In this document: positions 3,583-13,420 of the stretch, in pieces
Layout of the letters: each line of letters begins with the position of its first letter
Position numbering within the stretch: the stretch's first letter is position 1
NCBI GenBank assembly: GCA_018268195.1
Contig: JAFDWZ010000022.1
Span: 1 to 64,000, forward strand
Length of the DNA: 64,000 nucleotides
Source of the DNA: Bacteroidota bacterium
GTDB lineage: Bacteria; Bacteroidota; Bacteroidia; AKYH767-A; OLB10
Direction of reading: 5' to 3'
Program-made: the position numbers and the translations under genes
The notes under the pieces: model-generated
Database searches by the model: none
What the model was told of the DNA's origin: nothing
The model's input: the letters and a program-made list of their open reading frames with translations, nothing else

Positions 3583-3590
3583 TACTTTTG
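3583..3590 (+). promoter_or_regulatory. Candidate -7 box for the AddA-like gene
   Basis: TACTTTTG matches TAnnTTTG and lies 21 nt before the ATG at 3612. No clear TTG is at -33. If real, it excludes the in-frame TTG at 3588 as a start codon, because that codon would lie inside the promoter. Confidence 0.35.
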
Positions 3591-3611
3591 ATTCATCTTT
3601 ATTTTTCCGGT

Positions 3612-6600
3612 ATGAGTCATTTAAAAATTTATCAGTCATCAGCAGGGTCGGGAAAAACTTACACACTTGTGAAAGAGTATTTGTTGCTCGTATTGAAAAA
3701 TCCGGCATACATCCGCAGCACTCTTGCAGTGACTTTTACCAATGACGCCACTGGCGAAATGAAGGAAAGAGTTGTGAAAGCACTGTGGGAATTATCAAAA
3801 GAAAAAAACGAAGTTTTAAAAAACGATATCGAAAAATCTTTAGGTGATAAATTCAATATCAAGCAAGCAGCAGGAATAGTTTTAAATCATATTCTGCATC
3901 ATTATTCAGAACTTGCCATCCAGACTATTGATAGTTTTTTTCTCAACATCACCAGGTCGGTAGCTTACGAAACCGGTTTGCCCGGGCGTTACAATATTGA
4001 TCTCAATCGTGATGCTGCACTTGATTTTATGGCAGCTGAAGTGTTGCTTGCTTCAGGTGAAAATATGGAACTAACCAACTGGCTTATTGATTTTGCTTTT
4101 TACAGAATGGAAAATGAGAATGGGTGGAATTTGCAAGTCTCCATTAGAAATGCCGGAAAGTATCTTTTTAGTGATGAAGTGCAAAGTAGGTTGCAGAATT
4201 TAACGGTGGATGCCGAACTTATAAAGCAAATAAGAAATTGGACCAATGATTATAAAGACACGTTGCAACAAATAGCCGCCAATATTTTGCTGATACTCGA
4301 TTCGGTAGGCATTTCTGACGATAATCTTTTTCAGAAATCCAAAGGATTTATATCGGCAGTGAGGCATATAAATAAAGATAAACTTCCGAAGGATTTAACA
4401 TTCAAATGCCATTTTCTAAAAGCATGTGATGGAGGACAAATCTTCAGTAATGAGCTAGGCAACTATGCATTGGCAAATGATATCAGACAAGAGCTGCAGA
4501 AATTGCGCAAATATTTTGAAGAAGGCAAAACTAGATTCAAAACGGCTGATGCTATTCTTAAAAATATTTATTTGAAAGGCATGCTGGGTTATTTAAATCA
4601 GCAGCTTACCAGATACCGAAAAGAAAATCAAGTGTTGCTGATTAGTGATGTGGGAGGTATCTTAAGGAATTTTATTTCAAATGATGACACACCGTTTATT
4701 TATGAAAAGGCCGGGAATGCTTACCGCAATTTTTTAATTGACGAATTTCAGGATACTTCTGTGACGCAGTGGTTGAACATGCTCCCGTTACTCATTAATA
4801 GTCTTTCGCAAAACAATCAGGTGCTGACAGTGGGTGATGTTAAACAGTCTATTTACCGTTGGCGTGGTGGAGATATGAAATTGCTGATGGAAGAAGTAAA
4901 GAAGTCATTGAGTCATCATGCAAGAAAGACAGATGAGAAGAATCTCAGCTCAAATTACAGGTCAACAGAAGCTGTCATAAATTTTAATAATACCTTGTTC
5001 AGTCTGGCATCTTACATTTTTGCAGACAACCAATTAATAGGAAGAGCTTTTGAAAAGAAGCAGGTAGAGCAAAAGGTTGTTAAAAATCACATGAAAGGTT
5101 ACGTGCAGGTTGAAATAGTTAGTAATGAAAATGTAGAAGAGAATTTTATTTATCCTGATAATGTTAAGGACAATGTAAAATGTATTCTCAGTAAAACAAT
5201 GCTTTATATTCAGCAGCAAATTAGCAAAGGTTACACTTATGGCGATATTGCTTTGCTCGTTCGTGAGAATGCTAAGGGAAGTTTGCTTGCTGATTTTTTA
5301 GTTCTCAACGGTATTACGCAAATAAATTCGCGCGATTCTTTGCTGATAAACAAAGCTCCGCAGATTCGATTTTTAATCAGTGCTTTTCGTTTTATTGTCA
5401 ATGAATCTGATGACATTGCTGAAGCTCATATTCGTTGGTATGCATCCAAAATTCTTAATTTTGATAAGAAGGAATTGGATAAGATGTTTTTTCATTCTAA
5501 AAAGCAATATAGGCAAATGGCTTTAACTGAAGTAGGTGCTGCATTAATTCACCTTTTCAGACTGAATACAACTCCGGATGCCTACATTCAACGTTTTGAA
5601 GATTTGCTTTTGCAAAAAAGCAGCAAGGGGTTATACGATGTGCAGTTGTTTTTGAAATGGTGGGATGTGGAGAATGAAAGAATGAAAATTTCAGTTCAAA
5701 CACCTTCGGATAATAATTCCATTACGGTAATGACCATTCATGGTTCAAAAGGTTTGCAGTTTCCTGTTGTGATTTTGCCATTTACAAGCTTTGAATTTGC
5801 ATCAAGTAAAGGGGAGGTATGGGTTGAAACAGATGTTGAACCGTTTAACCAATTTGGCGTAGTTCCTGTTATGTTTGACAGCGGTCTGGAAGATAGTTAT
5901 TTTAAGAGTGATTTTGATAAGGAGCGAGACGAGAAACAATTGGATGAACTCAATGCATTCTATGTGGCTTGCACACGCGCTGAAGATAAGCTGTTTATAC
6001 TTCTTGAAGGAAAGGGGCCTGAAGAAGTGAAGAAAATTAATCATTTTGTTTTAGCAGCACTTGGTTTTGCAGAGATGCAATCAGTGATACAACAGAAGTC
6101 AGAAAGGTTGTTTGCAGTGGGTGAGGATGATTCAAAACCCGCTTCGAAAAAGAAGACGAATGATTTGCCTGATACCTATAAAACGGATTCGCTTAAAAAA
6201 TATTTGATTAATGAGAGAGGCGTGCATAAAGGTTTTAAAATCAGAAAACATATTTCGGAAGATGATCAGCGTGCATTTGGCATCAGACTTCATGATTTAA
6301 TGGCAACTTTTTATTCAGAAGAGGATAAAAGCAAAATTTTAAATCAGATTGAAACTTTGCCACTGAACGATGCAAAAAAAATGCAACTGAGAAAAGATGC
6401 AGACAGTGCAATTGATTTGATTCAGCAGCGACAATGGATAAAGGAAAAATATCAAGTACTGAATGAGACCGAGATTTGTGACAGTGAAGGGAATATTATC
6501 AGACCTGACAGGCTCATGATTAAGAATAAACAAGCAATTGTGCTCGACTACAAAACCGGACAGCCGTTAAATGAACATCAGCAACAGATGTTAGGTTATA

Positions 6601-6686
6601 AAAATGTATTGGAAGGGGCTGGATTCACCACCGTGGAGACTTTCTTATATTATCCTGAATCCGGTGAAGTGGTGCAAGTAAATTAA
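3612..6686 (+). CDS. AddA/RecB-like UvrD-family helicase with C-terminal PD-(D/E)XK nuclease
   Basis: 1024 residues from ATG 3612, which puts the Walker A motif SSAGSGKT at residues 9-16. The superfamily 1A motifs follow in order: Ia (AVTFTNDATGEMKERV), II (LIDEFQDTS), III (GDVKQSIYRWRGGD), IV (SSNYRS), V (MTIHGSKGLQFP) and VI (FYVACTRAEDKL). The last 150 residues hold a RecB-type nuclease core, with a Glu-rich helix, PDRLM and the motif DYKTG. This is the architecture of AddA, which with AddB resects double-strand breaks for RecA loading. No AddB gene is adjacent; neighbours are crcB and the convergent PAS-like gene, whose stop codon directly abuts this one. An in-frame TTG at 3588 would add 8 residues but overlaps a candidate promoter. 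Confidence 0.88.
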   Translation: MSHLKIYQSSAGSGKTYTLVKEYLLLVLKNPAYIRSTLAVTFTNDATGEMKERVVKALWELSKEKNEVLKNDIEKSLGDKFNIKQAAGIVLNHILHHYSELAIQTIDSFFLNITRSVAYETGLPGRYNIDLNRDAALDFMAAEVLLASGENMELTNWLIDFAFYRMENENGWNLQVSIRNAGKYLFSDEVQSRLQNLTVDAELIKQIRNWTNDYKDTLQQIAANILLILDSVGISDDNLFQKSKGFISAVRHINKDKLPKDLTFKCHFLKACDGGQIFSNELGNYALANDIRQELQKLRKYFEEGKTRFKTADAILKNIYLKGMLGYLNQQLTRYRKENQVLLISDVGGILRNFISNDDTPFIYEKAGNAYRNFLIDEFQDTSVTQWLNMLPLLINSLSQNNQVLTVGDVKQSIYRWRGGDMKLLMEEVKKSLSHHARKTDEKNLSSNYRSTEAVINFNNTLFSLASYIFADNQLIGRAFEKKQVEQKVVKNHMKGYVQVEIVSNENVEENFIYPDNVKDNVKCILSKTMLYIQQQISKGYTYGDIALLVRENAKGSLLADFLVLNGITQINSRDSLLINKAPQIRFLISAFRFIVNESDDIAEAHIRWYASKILNFDKKELDKMFFHSKKQYRQMALTEVGAALIHLFRLNTTPDAYIQRFEDLLLQKSSKGLYDVQLFLKWWDVENERMKISVQTPSDNNSITVMTIHGSKGLQFPVVILPFTSFEFASSKGEVWVETDVEPFNQFGVVPVMFDSGLEDSYFKSDFDKERDEKQLDELNAFYVACTRAEDKLFILLEGKGPEEVKKINHFVLAALGFAEMQSVIQQKSERLFAVGEDDSKPASKKKTNDLPDTYKTDSLKKYLINERGVHKGFKIRKHISEDDQRAFGIRLHDLMATFYSEEDKSKILNQIETLPLNDAKKMQLRKDADSAIDLIQQRQWIKEKYQVLNETEICDSEGNIIRPDRLMIKNKQAIVLDYKTGQPLNEHQQQMLGYKNVLEGAGFTTVETFLYYPESGEVVQVN

Positions 6687-7076
6687 TCAGCGAACGGTAA
6701 TGCGGGTAAATATCTGAGCGGGTTGATACCTATTTAACTGATTATGTTTGCTGTTTTCAATTCGGCAGCGATTGTGAATACGGTTGTCAGTAATCATCCA
6801 GGTATAAGTAACTTCATTCGTTTCCTGATGATGAATGAAAACAAAATCACAGATGCTGTAAAAATCTTTGTATGCAAATGGTATTTGTGGAACGAAATAT
6901 GGTTTGTTATGATAACTCAGGCATCTTATTTCAGGCTCTACACAATTCAATACAGGAAATTTTTTATATATATTTCTTCCTAACATATCGCTTAGTGTAA
7001 ACATGGTATCACAACTCTGAAGAATGATACCGTTCTTATCAAACATTATGATTTGACTTACACCTTGCTGTTTCAT
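6687..7076 (-). CDS. Small PAS-like single-domain protein, partner of the adjacent GTPase
   Basis: 129 residues with no signal peptide or membrane helix. The sequence resembles a lone PAS domain: an opening strand IIMFDKNGIILQS, a helical middle with LGRNIYKKFPVL, then strands around FVFIHHQ and VTYTWMITDNR. The last 30 residues are basic and polar. I recognise the fold only by pattern, so a heme, flavin or protein ligand cannot be named. The ATG directly abuts the stop codon of the upstream GTPase gene with no spacer, so translational coupling is likely and the two proteins probably act together. It lacks any output domain such as a kinase or cyclase. The 3' end touches the convergent helicase stop codon. 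Confidence 0.6.
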   Translation of the reverse strand: MKQQGVSQIIMFDKNGIILQSCDTMFTLSDMLGRNIYKKFPVLNCVEPEIRCLSYHNKPYFVPQIPFAYKDFYSICDFVFIHHQETNEVTYTWMITDNRIHNRCRIENSKHNQLNRYQPAQIFTRITVR

Positions 7077-7592
7077 TTAATAGCTTTTGATTTTTTGAAA
7101 GTATGTTTCATTGATCAGGTCAGCAGCTATAGAATAAAACATTTCACTTACCATGAAATTATTTTTTGCTGAGGTGAAGAACGTTCTGTAACAATCGAAA
7201 TCATCAAAATAGCTGCTACAGTCAATGTTCAGATTTTCTTCAATCTTATTGCACACCAGATATACCGGTGTTGAAGGCATGTGTTTTTTGTAATGTTCAA
7301 TCCAGCTGTCAAAATCACAGAAGGTTGAAGGTCTGTTTATGTCAATGACATGAATCAATGCATCGGTTCCGAGATAGAATGATTTAAACGATTTTAATTG
7401 TGATGCCGATCCCGGTACAGTCCATAAAATCAGATTGAGGTTTTTATTGTGAATGGAAACATCTTTCTTCTCAATCCTCAGATGTTCATCTGTATTATAA
7501 GAATATGAAAACCGGTCATTGGTAAAGCGATTTACTAAAGCCGTCTTTCCGCAGCCGCTATATCCTGTAACAAGAATTTTTTTATTGTTCAT
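7077..7592 (-). CDS. Rab/Ras-like small GTPase with altered G3 and G4 motifs
   Basis: 171 residues, the size of a single Ras-fold domain. G1 is intact (GYSGCGKT, Lys16-Thr17). The following core reads like Rab family members (FYLGTDALIHVIDI). G3, normally WDTAGQE, is WTVPGSA at residues 57-63: the Mg-coordinating Asp is Thr58 and the catalytic Gln is replaced by Ser. G4 is NKIE (115-118) instead of NKxD, and G5 is SAK (141-143). It may therefore bind nucleotide but hydrolyse it poorly. No C-terminal Cys prenylation motif is present. Rab-like GTPases occur in Bacteroidota, often beside sensor or PAS proteins, but I know no assigned function. It is the first gene of a two-gene unit with the PAS-like protein. 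Confidence 0.75.
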   Translation of the reverse strand: MNNKKILVTGYSGCGKTALVNRFTNDRFSYSYNTDEHLRIEKKDVSIHNKNLNLILWTVPGSASQLKSFKSFYLGTDALIHVIDINRPSTFCDFDSWIEHYKKHMPSTPVYLVCNKIEENLNIDCSSYFDDFDCYRTFFTSAKNNFMVSEMFYSIAADLINETYFQKIKSY

Positions 7593-7654
7593 GATGAAAG
7601 CTTTATTCTTTTATAGCGCTTTTCTGAAAAAAGGTTACATGCTAGACAAGCTTA

Positions 7655-10600
7655 TTAATCTTCCTCATAATGATTGGTTTTGCCATCTACGGTTTTGATG
7701 GTCTTCCAGTTGCCATCTGCATCCTGCTGTTGTATTTCATATTTCTCAACACCTTGTTCCCAACCTTTATATGGCGTCCATTCCAGTCGCGACCCATTCA
7801 TGTCGTTCAAAGAGCTTTTTAAAAGTATAGTAGCTGATTCAGATGTCAGTCCTGTTGTGAGATTACAGATGTTTTCCACTTCTATTTTATATGAATAGCT
7901 ATGGTTGATGACATCTGTATTGCGGTCCACATAGGAGAATGTGTTATTATCTACTTTATCCAGAAAGATATATTCTCCCGGCTGGCTGTCGTCAGAGCGG
8001 TAAATCAGATAGTAGGCCACAAGAAAACTCATGGTATCAGGAGCATCCCATTCAGTCAAAACATATTCGTTTCTTACAACAGTAGAGCGTTTAATTTTTG
8101 GCAGTAGGCTGATATTTGGAGGTTGTGGCGTAGCGCTGTTATTATTACTTTCAGAGCTGAAACTTGTGCCCTGAAATTCGGCTTCAACTTTATAATAGAA
8201 AGGGATGGCGCAATATGCTGCTGTATCTATGTAAGTAAGTGCATTTGTTTCTCCAATCAAATCATAGTTCAATGCATCTTCACTTCTGTAAACATAATAC
8301 ACGTCAACCGGTCTTCCTGTGTAAGCGTTCCAGTTAAGATTTACCTTGCCTGTTCCTGCCAATGTTTTCAGATAAACAGAAGTATGGGCTTCGGAACTAT
8401 CAAGAGGATAAGCGGTATCGCAGGAATTTACAGTTACTATTTTATACGAATAAGATTGATTGTTAGGTTGAACTGAAGTGTCAATGAAAACAGATGTTGG
8501 CCCCATAGAAGTATTATTAGAATTGTTGAGCGTGCTGATTAGATGATAATGTATTTGATCATCGGCTCTGTATAATTCATATTGTTTCAGGTTTAATGCA
8601 GTAGAGTTGTTCCACGTTATCCTTATGGAAGAAGAATCCAGTACAGTGATATAACTTATCTCTGCAGGAGGTAATGGATCGCTGTTAAAAGCGGTGATTG
8701 CATGTGTTTTGACAATGCTGTCAGAGCATAAATGCTCGTTGGTTACTACTAATTTCGGAGAATAATGCCCGGGATTGTCATATTGAAATGATGGTGAGAA
8801 TACAGAGGACTGAAATCCATTGTCGCTATACCATTGATAAGTTGCGTTTTGTGTATTGCTACAGCTGTTTGTAAACGTAACACTGAGAGGAGCACACCCT
8901 GTAGGAGAGTTAATGCTGAAATCGGCTGTCGGCTGAGCAACAACTCTGATTAGGTGGTTGTAAGTTAAACTATCGGTACATGCACCATTGGAAGCGGTGA
9001 GTGTGATGGTATAAATGCCGGCATTTTGATAATGGTGTGTTGGAGAGCGTTTGAATGACGAAGTGCCATCGCCAAAATTCCAATAATATTGATTGGCGCC
9101 AGTTGTGGTGTTTATAAAGTTGATGGTTTGGCTGCTGCAGATAGCAGTATCGCTTACGGTAAATTGTAACAATGGAGCTGCATCCACCTTTAGGGTATCG
9201 AGTTGAGTATATACTGACTGGCAACCATTATTGTCGGTAATTATCAGTGAAGCCTGATATGTTCCGGAAGTGGTAAAGGTATGCACCGGTGATTGCAATG
9301 TTGAAGAGTCACCATCGCTGAAGCTCCAGAAATAACTTGCGGCCTGTTGCGAAGAGTCGGTAAATGTAACCGTCAGTGGAGCACATCCATGGGATATATC
9401 AACTGAGAATTTTGCACGAGGACCGGGAATCACAATAGAATTATTCAAAGTATGAGTAGCAGTGCAGCCTGCCGAGTCGGTAATGGTCAGCGATACATTG
9501 TAACTCCCTCCGGATGTATAAATGTGAGTAGGGTGTTGCTGTGATGAGGTGGAGCCGTCACCAAAATTCCAGAGATAAGTAGCTGCATTCTGCGAAAGGT
9601 TATTGAACTGAGCAGTAACAGGTGCACATCCTGATGTAATACTATAACCGAAGTTACAGGTAGGCTCTGTAATTTTAACCTGTGTTAGCATGGCTGTATC
9701 TGCACATCCAAACGAGTCGGTAGCAATCAGCATGGGTGTGAAGTTTCCTGTCTGCGAGTAAGTGTGTGTGGCTGTAATGGTGTTTGCAGTAGTGCCATCA
9801 CCGAAATTCCACAACCACTGAACAGCATTCATACTTTGATTCGTGAAAGTAACCGCCAATGGATTACAGCCTGAGGTGTCAGAAACATTTCCGATAGCAT
9901 CAGGGAACAAGATTTTATCTTTTTCAATCTGCTTAATACAGCCATTCACATCTTCTGCAACAAGAGTTATTTTTCCTGTTGGAACAGTATGGAAGGTATG
10001 CGTAGCATTTTTTACAGTGGATGAATCTCCATCACCCCAATACCATTTCCATTTGTAAACTTCGTTGCTCGAATCAGCAACTGTTATAGTCACAGGCAGA
10101 CATCCGTTTGTGCGGGTGTAAGTAAAATCTGCATAAAAGTTGGGGATATGAACGGCATTGTTTATGGTTTTGGAAGAAGAGCATCCGTTCTTATAAGCTG
10201 TAAGAGTTACTGCATAATTTACAGGTGCATTCTGATTGTAGTAATAATAATTGCTGCAGTTGACTTGGGTAGATGTAATGCCATTGCCAAGGTCCCACAG
10301 GTAGTATGTACTTCCTGTTGATGAATTTGAAAAATCATAATGCACCCAGTTGCAATTGGATGTGGGAGCTCCCATACTGAAATCAGCAACAGGTTTGTTT
10401 ATTTCAACAGGTGCAGCTGAATTGAAAGTCTGATGGCATCCACTCACATCGGTAACGTCAACACTTATCGGATAAAATCCTGCCTTAGAATAACTGTGAG
10501 CCACCGTATTGCCCGTTGCCGAAGTATTGTCACCAAAATTCCAGAGATATGATACATAATTGGAGTTAGGTAAACTGAATGTTAGCACTTCATCGGCACA

Positions 10601-13420
10601 TGCTCTTGATTTATTTACCATTACCGGATTTGTGGAAGTGTAAGAGTAAAATGAAGTACTGTAAACTGATGTACAACCTAAAGAATCGGTTAGTTGTAAT
10701 GAGATAATATAGTTATTGGTATTAGTAAAGGTATGTGTTGGCGACATTAAGTTGCTGGTAGTCTGGTCGCCAAAATCCCAGTGATAGGTTGCTGCGCTCT
10801 GATTTTGTGGTATAGCAGCAATGTTGACGCCTGAACAGGTTGAAACGTTTTGTAAACTGAATGCAGCACTTGTGCCTGCCACCTTAACTGCATGCGATGT
10901 GTAAATAGTATCCGGGATGCCATAATTATCCACGCTGATGAGCATCACATCATAAATACCGGGCATGGTATAGGTATGTGAAGGGTTTAGTTGGGTTGAA
11001 GTGTTTCCATCACCAAAATCCCAAAAGCTGGAAGTAATATTGATAAGCGGATTGTGAAAGTTGATAGTAAGAGGTGCACAACCATCATAATTCATGGTGT
11101 AGGTAGTAGAGTCGGTTGTTGCATCAAATAAAGTTCCTCCGGAGCCGAAATCGGTAGGAGGAAAACTGTAACTTGTAGTACAACTGTCGTTTGCAATAGT
11201 AAGTGTGATAGTAAATGGACCTGTTGTTGTGTAAGGATGAAGAGGGTTTTCTAAAGTTGAAGAATCTCCATCGCCAAATGTCCAAAGCCAGGATGTGGCA
11301 CCAACTGTATTTGCATAAAACTGAACATTCATTGGCAAAACAGTATCCGTAGTTATTGCAGAGGGCGATGCACCTAAGGAAATAAAACTCATGGCATACT
11401 GATGTACCGTGTTTGTATGACATCCGTCAGCAGTAGTAATAGACAGGGAAACATTGTAATTGCCCGTCTGAGAATAAGTATGTGTAGGGTTCTGCACGGT
11501 TGAGGTCTGGCCATCACCAAAATTCCACAGCCAGGAGATAGCATTTGTCGAGCTGTCGGTAAAGTAGCCGATGAAGGGTGGACATAAAGTTTGTGTGTAA
11601 GTGAATTCAGCAGTTCCACCGCCAACGTTATAAGTTGCAAAATTGGTAATCAACTGCGAACAGTTGCCACCGCTGCTTTGTGTCTGTAATGATACTGCGT
11701 AAGTGCCGGGAGCGTTATAGGTGTGTGTTGGACTTTGTTGAGTCGAAGTATTTCCGTCACCAAAATCCCATAGCCATGAAGTTGCACTGGAAGAGTCGCT
11801 GAGGCTGATAGTTAACGGTGCACAGCCCGTAATAGGTTGTGAACTGCTGAAATTATTTACGGTTCCACCGGGATGGATATAATTTGTTTTGATAAGAGAG
11901 TCTTTACATCCTGAAGCATCCATGCCATAAAGTGTAACACTGTATGATCCTTGCTGCTGATAAGTGTATGTAGGACTGAAAGCCGATGAGGTATCACCAT
12001 TTCCAAATTTCCACAACCATGACGATGCATTCAGACTAAGATTCGTGAAATTAACCGTAAGCGGATTACATCCTGTTGTTTTATCTGCTACAAAATCAAT
12101 ATCAGGTCCGTTTACATTAATTCCGTAGGCAAAAGTGTATTCAGTACTGCAACCGTTGGTAGCAGTAATTGTTAATAATGGATGATAGTTGCCTGCATGT
12201 TGATAGGTATAGGTAAAAGTAGAACCTGTTCCGCTGCCTCCGTCATCACTTTGCCACTGGTATGAAGCTCCGTTGGCCACCTGAGGACTGAAGGTTACCG
12301 ATAAAGGTTTGCAACCATTGGTAATATTGGAAGTGAAATTAGCAACAGGAGATGCAAGCACTAAAATGCTTACAGGTGTTGCACTGTTACTGCAACCATT
12401 GGCATAGTTTGCTGTCAGTGATGGTTGGTATGTTCCTGCAAAATTATACAGCGTAGCAACAGAACCGAGCGTTGAAGTGATACCGTTTTTTAAATCCCAT
12501 TGCAGGGAAACTGCACCTGGAGCTGATGCATTAAGCACAGTAGAAAAAGGTGTGCATCCTGAAAGTGTTGAAGCTGTGATTACAGGAACAGGATTACTTA
12601 ATACCGTTATCTGCTTATTTACTTGCAGAGTAGAAGTACATCCGTTTACTGATGTTGATGTTACCGAAACAGTATAACTGCCGGGTGAAGTGTAATGATG
12701 TTGCACGGCACTGCCAATAGCAGTAGCTCCGTCACCAAAATCCCAGACAAGGGTACCTGCAGGTGCAGAAGTTCCGGTAAACTGAAAGTTTTTGTTTACA
12801 TCACATGTTGCAAAAGTATCTACTGTAGCTGTAATGGAAGGTAATGCATGTATGGTGATATAATTGTTTTTAGTAAGACTTGCTGTACATGCCGAACCGC
12901 CTTTGTAAAGAATTAGAGTTACAGGAAAACTACCTGCCAGTGAGTAGCTGTGTGCCGGGTTATTAATTTTAGAAGTTACGCCATCACCAAAATCCCACTC
13001 ACAACTGTCATATCCGCTGCTTTGATTGTTGAAGGATATCAACTCATTCATACAAGCAGATGTTTTTGATGCAGAAAATTGTACTACGGGTTTATTTGAA
13101 ATTTTTATTAGATGGGTTAGAATAACTGAATCAGCCCCTGATGCATTAATAGCTACCAGGCTGATGGTGTAATTACCGGCATTATTAAATGTAATTACCG
13201 GACTCGGTAAGGCAGACGACATGCCATTTCCAAAATCCCAGTGGTAGGAAGTTGCATTTTGACTGTTATTAATAAAATTCACAATCAGAGGTGCACAACC
13301 TTCCGTTTGGCTTACACTGAAGGATGCAACAGGTTGTTGCGCATATACTACCCTTGTCATCAACAAAAGCAGCAATGCACTATAGCCGATTACCTTTTTT
13401 AATGGATTTTTGGTTAACAC
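7655..13420 (-). CDS. Giant PKD/FN3 repeat protein lacking its C-terminal sorting domain
   Basis: 1921 residues from a GTG start at 13420; no upstream in-frame ATG precedes a stop. A signal peptide (KVIGYSALLLLLMTRVVYA) is followed by 19 PKD-type modules of about 80-90 residues, each with a core such as WDFGDGxTS and usually GCxPLxVxF at its start. Three complete FN3 domains follow (for example around ELYRADD, YVYRSED and YLIYRSDD). A fourth begins LEWTPYKGWEQGVEKYEI and stops after NHYEED. In the related protein at 29735-32092 the equivalent FN3 domain continues and leads into a type B T9SS sorting domain; here about 120 residues are missing. The protein would be exported to the periplasm but has no visible surface-secretion signal. 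It may be a truncated adhesin. Confidence 0.88.
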   Translation of the reverse strand: MLTKNPLKKVIGYSALLLLLMTRVVYAQQPVASFSVSQTEGCAPLIVNFINNSQNATSYHWDFGNGMSSALPSPVITFNNAGNYTISLVAINASGADSVILTHLIKISNKPVVQFSASKTSACMNELISFNNQSSGYDSCEWDFGDGVTSKINNPAHSYSLAGSFPVTLILYKGGSACTASLTKNNYITIHALPSITATVDTFATCDVNKNFQFTGTSAPAGTLVWDFGDGATAIGSAVQHHYTSPGSYTVSVTSTSVNGCTSTLQVNKQITVLSNPVPVITASTLSGCTPFSTVLNASAPGAVSLQWDLKNGITSTLGSVATLYNFAGTYQPSLTANYANGCSNSATPVSILVLASPVANFTSNITNGCKPLSVTFSPQVANGASYQWQSDDGGSGTGSTFTYTYQHAGNYHPLLTITATNGCSTEYTFAYGINVNGPDIDFVADKTTGCNPLTVNFTNLSLNASSWLWKFGNGDTSSAFSPTYTYQQQGSYSVTLYGMDASGCKDSLIKTNYIHPGGTVNNFSSSQPITGCAPLTISLSDSSSATSWLWDFGDGNTSTQQSPTHTYNAPGTYAVSLQTQSSGGNCSQLITNFATYNVGGGTAEFTYTQTLCPPFIGYFTDSSTNAISWLWNFGDGQTSTVQNPTHTYSQTGNYNVSLSITTADGCHTNTVHQYAMSFISLGASPSAITTDTVLPMNVQFYANTVGATSWLWTFGDGDSSTLENPLHPYTTTGPFTITLTIANDSCTTSYSFPPTDFGSGGTLFDATTDSTTYTMNYDGCAPLTINFHNPLINITSSFWDFGDGNTSTQLNPSHTYTMPGIYDVMLISVDNYGIPDTIYTSHAVKVAGTSAAFSLQNVSTCSGVNIAAIPQNQSAATYHWDFGDQTTSNLMSPTHTFTNTNNYIISLQLTDSLGCTSVYSTSFYSYTSTNPVMVNKSRACADEVLTFSLPNSNYVSYLWNFGDNTSATGNTVAHSYSKAGFYPISVDVTDVSGCHQTFNSAAPVEINKPVADFSMGAPTSNCNWVHYDFSNSSTGSTYYLWDLGNGITSTQVNCSNYYYYNQNAPVNYAVTLTAYKNGCSSSKTINNAVHIPNFYADFTYTRTNGCLPVTITVADSSNEVYKWKWYWGDGDSSTVKNATHTFHTVPTGKITLVAEDVNGCIKQIEKDKILFPDAIGNVSDTSGCNPLAVTFTNQSMNAVQWLWNFGDGTTANTITATHTYSQTGNFTPMLIATDSFGCADTAMLTQVKITEPTCNFGYSITSGCAPVTAQFNNLSQNAATYLWNFGDGSTSSQQHPTHIYTSGGSYNVSLTITDSAGCTATHTLNNSIVIPGPRAKFSVDISHGCAPLTVTFTDSSQQAASYFWSFSDGDSSTLQSPVHTFTTSGTYQASLIITDNNGCQSVYTQLDTLKVDAAPLLQFTVSDTAICSSQTINFINTTTGANQYYWNFGDGTSSFKRSPTHHYQNAGIYTITLTASNGACTDSLTYNHLIRVVAQPTADFSINSPTGCAPLSVTFTNSCSNTQNATYQWYSDNGFQSSVFSPSFQYDNPGHYSPKLVVTNEHLCSDSIVKTHAITAFNSDPLPPAEISYITVLDSSSIRITWNNSTALNLKQYELYRADDQIHYHLISTLNNSNNTSMGPTSVFIDTSVQPNNQSYSYKIVTVNSCDTAYPLDSSEAHTSVYLKTLAGTGKVNLNWNAYTGRPVDVYYVYRSEDALNYDLIGETNALTYIDTAAYCAIPFYYKVEAEFQGTSFSSESNNNSATPQPPNISLLPKIKRSTVVRNEYVLTEWDAPDTMSFLVAYYLIYRSDDSQPGEYIFLDKVDNNTFSYVDRNTDVINHSYSYKIEVENICNLTTGLTSESATILLKSSLNDMNGSRLEWTPYKGWEQGVEKYEIQQQDADGNWKTIKTVDGKTNHYEED
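8690..13340 (-). repeat. Tandem array of 19 PKD-type repeats
   Basis: Nineteen degenerate coding repeats of about 240-270 bp encode the PKD modules of the giant protein. They diverge at the DNA level but share the core W-x-F-G-D-G. Most modules carry two Cys residues, one in the opening GCxPL strand and one in the D/NGC segment before the last strand. Modules 4, 5, 13, 14 and 19 have the most divergent core (for example WDLKNG, WQSDDG, WYWGDG). Confidence 0.85.

Follow-up and report, generated by a model that had tools for sequence, protein, structure and literature searches.

Our analysis showed that two adjacent minus-strand genes of the window (the whole stretch of 64,000 nucleotides that was analysed), one for a Rab-like small GTPase and the other for a stand-alone PAS protein, descend from the Group 1 Rup module and have parted with its regulator and its kinase. 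We think it probable, with some reserve, that this pair is what remains of the module after reduction and re-tuning, with the GTPase as a guanine-nucleotide-bound "pseudo-switch" and the PAS protein as its adaptor. The pair is neither a mobile cassette nor a wholly new system but a modified form of the Group 1 Rup module, which is itself uncharacterised. What stands out most in it is a fixed reciprocal exchange of Thr and Asp in both switches of the GTPase.

The first gene (7077..7592, minus strand) was called as an ORF for a Rab/Rup-like small GTPase of 171 aa. It matched Pfam Ras (E=1.3e-19), its nearest relatives among solved structures were Rab7, Rab35 and Rab12, and all 60 of its best solved-structure matches were Rab-family GTPases. 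The second gene (6687..7076, minus strand) encodes a stand-alone PAS-fold protein of 129 aa, identified with AlphaFold and Foldseek and aligned with the N-terminal domains of Rup-associated kinases. As a preliminary description of this DNA had stated, the two ORFs are present without a spacer, with the TAA of the GTPase directly before the ATG of the PAS gene (7074..7079, minus strand, 0 nt between them), and neither protein has an output domain. The junction was identical in three species of the source genus, and a 1-nt spacer was found in the fourth. Both ORFs were retained in all four species, in the order PKD gene, GTPase, PAS and then a convergent helicase, and no mobile-element genes were found between the genes flanking the pair. 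The intergenic region from the stop of the PKD gene to the start of the GTPase (7593..7654, minus strand) contains partly conserved TGTAACCTTTTT / CTATAAAA blocks, which might be a candidate internal promoter. The PKD gene itself (7655-13420, minus strand; Pfam scan and synteny) had been taken for a broken adhesin. It was found to encode a PKD-repeat protein of 1921 aa with a fibronectin-like tail, whose end point is common to all four species, and it is therefore not recently broken. No recognisable C-terminal secretion or sorting domain was found in this protein by the Pfam scan.

Synonymous divergence is near saturation between most species of the source genus. The dN/dS of the GTPase was 0.028 at a dS of 0.44 and ranged from 0.028 to 0.045 in the closer pairs, and that of the PAS gene was 0.08–0.16, at near-saturated dS. 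Both genes are under purifying selection in this genus, and the GTPase is conserved more strongly than the adjoining helicase.

The window GTPase aligns end to end with the GTPases of Rup modules at 25–33% identity. Its G1/P-loop GYSGCGKT (residues 10-17; 7542..7565, minus strand) is intact, and its G4 motif is NKIE (7239..7250, minus strand), which reads NKID in two sister species; the G1, NK(D/E) and SA(K/R) motifs are retained throughout the GTPases of the source genus. However, the switch-I Thr is replaced by Asp35 (codon 7488..7490, minus strand), which was found in all four species of the genus, whereas 99 of 100 relatives have T and the other one has S. Conversely, the G3 Asp is replaced by Thr58 (codon 7419..7421, minus strand), giving TVPG for DIAG; this T was also found in all four species (TAPG in one of them), whereas D or E stands there in 101 of 101 relatives. 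Both Mg2+-coordinating residues are thus exchanged in 4/4 of the source genus and in none of about 100 relatives, and canonical switch residues were present in all 21 GTPases matched when the class and the phylum were searched. The G3 Gln is absent from the GTPases of the source genus, which have S, A or T instead, and few relatives have Q. Since two key metal-binding residues are exchanged, the GTPase is probably not an ordinary on/off switch. Key G-motif residues have been lost from a protein that is still under selection, which is one mark of a pseudoGTPase. In the tree, the stem of the GTPases of the source genus is long, at 2.15 changes per site, and their tips are short; because of this stem they were not placed within the Rup tree. 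Branch lengths of this kind point to a burst of change followed by constraint.

AlphaFold, run with 46 sequences, gave the 129-aa protein a PAS fold with the element order β-β-α-α-β-β-β-α (mean pLDDT 86.5, core about 96), and all 50 Foldseek matches listed against the PDB were PAS or PAS-like sensor domains. Structure prediction had been named as a possible means of refuting the PAS-like call, and it yielded this fold and not another. No Pfam match above the cut-off and no NCBIfam match were found for the protein, and a sequence-profile search of solved structures gave no meaningful match. The candidate that it is a roadblock GAP was rejected, as all 50 Foldseek matches listed are PAS-type sensor domains. 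Gln8 (codon 7053..7055, minus strand) is invariant in the 10 family sequences, and Q occupies this position in 92 of 99 aligned domains; the alignment takes in the N-termini of kinases, where the Gln is retained. In the AlphaFold model this residue sits on the first PAS strand, where it may have a structural role. In relatives, a signalling helix, QQERNE, runs from the PAS domain towards the kinase. The aligned window protein lacks this helix, and its ORF stops after the PAS domain, with no kinase or GGDEF/EAL output module.

In the sections used here of the survey in which Rup GTPases were defined (Wuichet & Søgaard-Andersen 2014, PMC4316618), Group 1 Rup neighbourhoods consist of a coiled-coil gene, a roadblock/longin-like (DUF±OmpA) protein, a Rup GTPase and an output protein. 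The output proteins share an N-terminal region bearing an invariant Gln, which the same sections propose to act in trans on the GTPase in a GAP-like manner (PMC4316618). From the alignment, and as far as those sections describe it, we equate this region with the PAS domain of our model, and its "invariant glutamine" with Gln8. None of the Rup GTPases had been characterised according to the same source (PMC4316618), and we found no later study of them in the literature searched.

Both genes were sought in other genomes, as had been suggested. Among 395 genomes of the class, relatives of the GTPase were found in 14, relatives of the PAS protein in 15 and both in 10, and the two were adjacent in all 10 (Fisher p ~1e-13; ~6e-7 at the genus level). 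The recurring order is a short coiled-coil gene (in many), a roadblock/longin-like protein of about 280 aa, the GTPase, and then either PAS alone or a PAS-kinase, in which PAS is joined to HisKA/HATPase and sometimes to receiver and Hpt domains as well. The ~280-aa protein has a coiled coil and a C-terminal domain that is weakly longin-like (Fuz_longin_1 E=0.0012, below the Pfam cut-off), with an OmpA-like domain in its C-terminal extension at two loci. One pattern scan of the GTDB species genomes with this roadblock-like protein as the query found 392 module loci. Among the best 80 of these, all but two were labelled Bacteroidota, and a PAS domain or its kinase followed 85 of 90 GTPases, within 20 nt in 78 of the 85. 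The association of a PAS domain with a Ras-fold GTPase, as first put forward for the window, is therefore real and recurrent, and the Group 1 Rup module is widespread in Bacteroidota. A third member had also been anticipated; relatives do have one, namely the PAS-fused histidine kinase and the upstream roadblock/longin-like protein, but the window module does not, as its locus holds only the GTPase and the PAS protein.

The scan also revealed several variants of the module. Two GTPase genes were present at 11 of the best 80 loci, mostly as double GTPase-PAS cassettes. In the Flavobacteriaceae-type double cassette (L085, L096, L108, L109, L112, L126, L129, L130, L135, L136) the order is roadblock-like gene, GTPase1, a PAS protein of about 200 aa, GTPase2 and PAS-histidine kinase. 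At L080:6554-7804 a SpoIIE phosphatase forms a fusion with the PAS domain; those sections of the 2014 survey do not mention this type of output (PMC4316618). PAS domain and histidine kinase are two overlapping ORFs at L079:7329-9163, which is either a natural split or an assembly frameshift. The module copies L081 and L082 lie in contigs labelled Gammaproteobacteria, and their GTPases group with those of the Bacteroidota loci L100 and L101 (97/93), which suggests transfer or mis-binning. Roadblock-like proteins next to a Rab-like GTPase, such as that of L045:6322-7164 (minus strand), weakly resemble the longin domains of FUZ, MON1 and HPS1 (Pfam E=0.0012, below the cut-off). In the Chitinophagales loci L071 and L075, the roadblock-like gene and a canonical GTPase are present and no PAS gene follows, a loss complementary to that of the source family.

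Within the source order, the roadblock-like protein was found neither in the source genome nor in any of the order's 42 genomes, and Robl_LC7 gave no match over the cut-off in the source genome. The GTPase was not found in the 38 other genomes of the order. A search of the order that includes G282, a genome whose contig stops at the PAS gene, likewise found no genus-type GTPase. Six genomes of four sister genera have the PAS gene and lack a Rup-like GTPase altogether. In four of these genomes, from the sister genera g5, g7 and g8, the PAS gene and the same helicase still converge, and in genus g2 the PAS gene lies among different genes. The preliminary description had allowed that PAS homologues might be found mostly without the GTPase; this holds within the family, where the GTPase is missing from 6 of the 10 genomes with PAS, but not in the class sample, where it accompanies PAS in 10 of 15. 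In the tree, the family's PAS domains group in a single supported clade (99/97) with two halves, one that includes the GTPase-bearing genus and one that is free of the GTPase; the simplest explanation is that the second half lost it. Because these six genomes have kept the PAS protein, it must have a role that is independent of the GTPase. Its Gln is equally invariant in them, and both an obligate coupling of the two proteins and a purely catalytic Gln acting in trans are therefore doubtful.

Our preferred reading, a pseudo-switch with an adaptor, would run as follows. In the parent module, a Rab-like GTPase is encoded together with a roadblock/longin-like protein and an output protein that begins with PAS, in most cases a histidine kinase, and the GTPase is thought to pass a membrane or cytoplasmic signal via the PAS domain to the output protein. 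In the source genus, the roadblock-like regulator and the kinase were lost, and the burst of change in the GTPase swapped both Mg2+-coordinating residues while the P-loop, NK(D/E) and SA(K/R) stayed. The GTPase most likely still binds guanine nucleotide and no longer cycles as Ras does, and may serve as a partner that is fixed or cycles slowly. The PAS protein, translated along with it, is predicted to bind the GTPase as an adaptor or sensor and to hand its state to a protein encoded elsewhere. A predicted structure of the complex, another check that had been proposed, lent this binding no support. The fused GTPase-PAS AlphaFold run, with TAA read as Gln and a 72-row alignment, gave a pTM of 0.60 and no confident interface; this is about the value for two unoriented domains, and the model is therefore no evidence for an interface. 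As to the exchange itself, we consider it rather unlikely, though worth stating, that it is a compensated shift, by which the Mg2+ ligand of switch II has been relocated to switch I. This would make the GTPase a new kind of Ras-superfamily switch, in which an MglA-like TVPG was reached independently within the Rup lineage and the stand-alone PAS protein serves as the readout.

The pair can also be explained in other ways. The alternative we take most seriously, possible although we doubt it, is that two functionally separate genes are co-inherited: the PAS protein would work with another partner (a kinase elsewhere, or one tied to the helicase locus), the GTPase would have a job of its own, and their adjacency would be historical. 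The genomes that keep PAS without the GTPase, four of them still with the convergent helicase, and the lack of a confident interface in the fused model argue for it. So does a comparison of the sister species G021 and G023, in which dS is about 0.4 for the PKD, GTPase and acyl-CoA dehydrogenase genes and 1.6–1.8 for the PAS and helicase genes (L058 and L059 against window 3588-13420), which apparently places a breakpoint of homologous recombination between GTPase and PAS. As the GTPase and PKD genes of the two are near-identical and the PAS and helicase genes diverged, the GTPase and PAS genes are separable by recombination. However, a junction of 0 or 1 nt is common to all four species, and in the parent module the PAS domain is as a rule paired with the GTPase. 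An unlikely alternative is that the PAS protein is a GAP-like partner whose invariant Gln acts in trans on a GTPase that still cycles. This would agree with the S, A or T in place of the G3 Gln, with the invariance of Gln8 and with the proposal for Group 1 Rup systems in the sections cited (PMC4316618). On the other hand, the Gln is just as invariant in family genomes without a Rup-like GTPase, the exchange of both Mg2+-coordinating residues should disturb catalysis, and the position of Gln8 on the first PAS strand would suit a structural role.

The two remaining explanations concern the history of the locus. It is very unlikely that the pair is a decaying relic of the Rup module heading for loss. 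The roadblock-like gene, the kinase and the signalling helix are gone and the GTPase is missing in related lineages, but the dN/dS values of both genes are low, their frames are intact in all species, and the GTPase is better conserved than the helicase beside it. A small mobile or recently inserted cassette, as first supposed, is an explanation to which we give almost no weight. Although the flanking genes have no obvious functional link to the pair and the GTPase is missing from the other 38 genomes of the order, the pair is at the same site in all four species despite saturated synonymous divergence between most of them. Moreover, the PAS gene adjoins the same helicase in three other genera, and the flanking genes enclose no mobile-element genes.

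The window module is a minimal surviving unit of a parent module that ties a Rab-like GTPase to a kinase via the PAS domain, and with it the link between GTPase and PAS is open to study in two small proteins. It presents a natural swap of both Mg2+-coordinating residues, and the swap in G3 is the one that sets MglA apart among GTPases. A natural control is provided by the sister lineages with PAS and its Gln but no Rup-like GTPase, which weaken the published idea of a catalytic Gln in trans.

Among known systems, Group 1 Rup shares with the window a small Ras-superfamily GTPase (<240 aa; 171 aa here), which is Rab-like and lacks the G3 Gln, and an adjacent coupled gene whose product has an N-terminal region with, in the sections of the survey cited, an invariant Gln (Gln8 here). 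Unlike Group 1 Rup, the window GTPase lacks the conserved G3 Asp and switch-I Thr (T58 and D35 in 4/4), and its locus has no roadblock/longin-like (DUF±OmpA) or coiled-coil gene and no kinase or c-di-GMP (GGDEF/EAL) output. With MglA of the MglA/MglB system it shares a TVPG-type G3 motif, in which Thr replaces Asp. TVPG is the hallmark of MglA, and the substitutions T78D and P80A abolish MglA function (PMC3000849). In contrast to MglA (TxxGQ), no Gln follows the TVPG of the window, its switch-I Thr has become Asp, its nearest solved relatives are Rabs and its genome has no MglB/roadblock gene. Membership of the MglA family was rejected on the last two grounds, because of which TVPG most likely arose independently of MglA.

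Eukaryotic pseudoGTPases, such as the p190RhoGAP domains and the class II septins, similarly have lost switch or catalytic residues and conserved the motifs of the nucleotide pocket. The window GTPase differs from them in that it is bacterial and stand-alone and shows a reciprocal residue exchange. The actinobacterial conservons (CvnA-D, with the GAF accessory CvnF) likewise co-encode a small GTPase with a sensory-domain protein and have stand-alone sensor accessories. Compared with them, the window has no kinase, roadblock protein or CvnC, its GTPase belongs to another family, and PAS stands in place of GAF. CvnF8, a stand-alone GAF protein of Streptomyces, acts as a modulator of the kinase in a conservon G-protein system (PMC13343842). 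By analogy, CvnF8 would provide a precedent for a stand-alone sensory-domain protein in a GTPase/kinase system.
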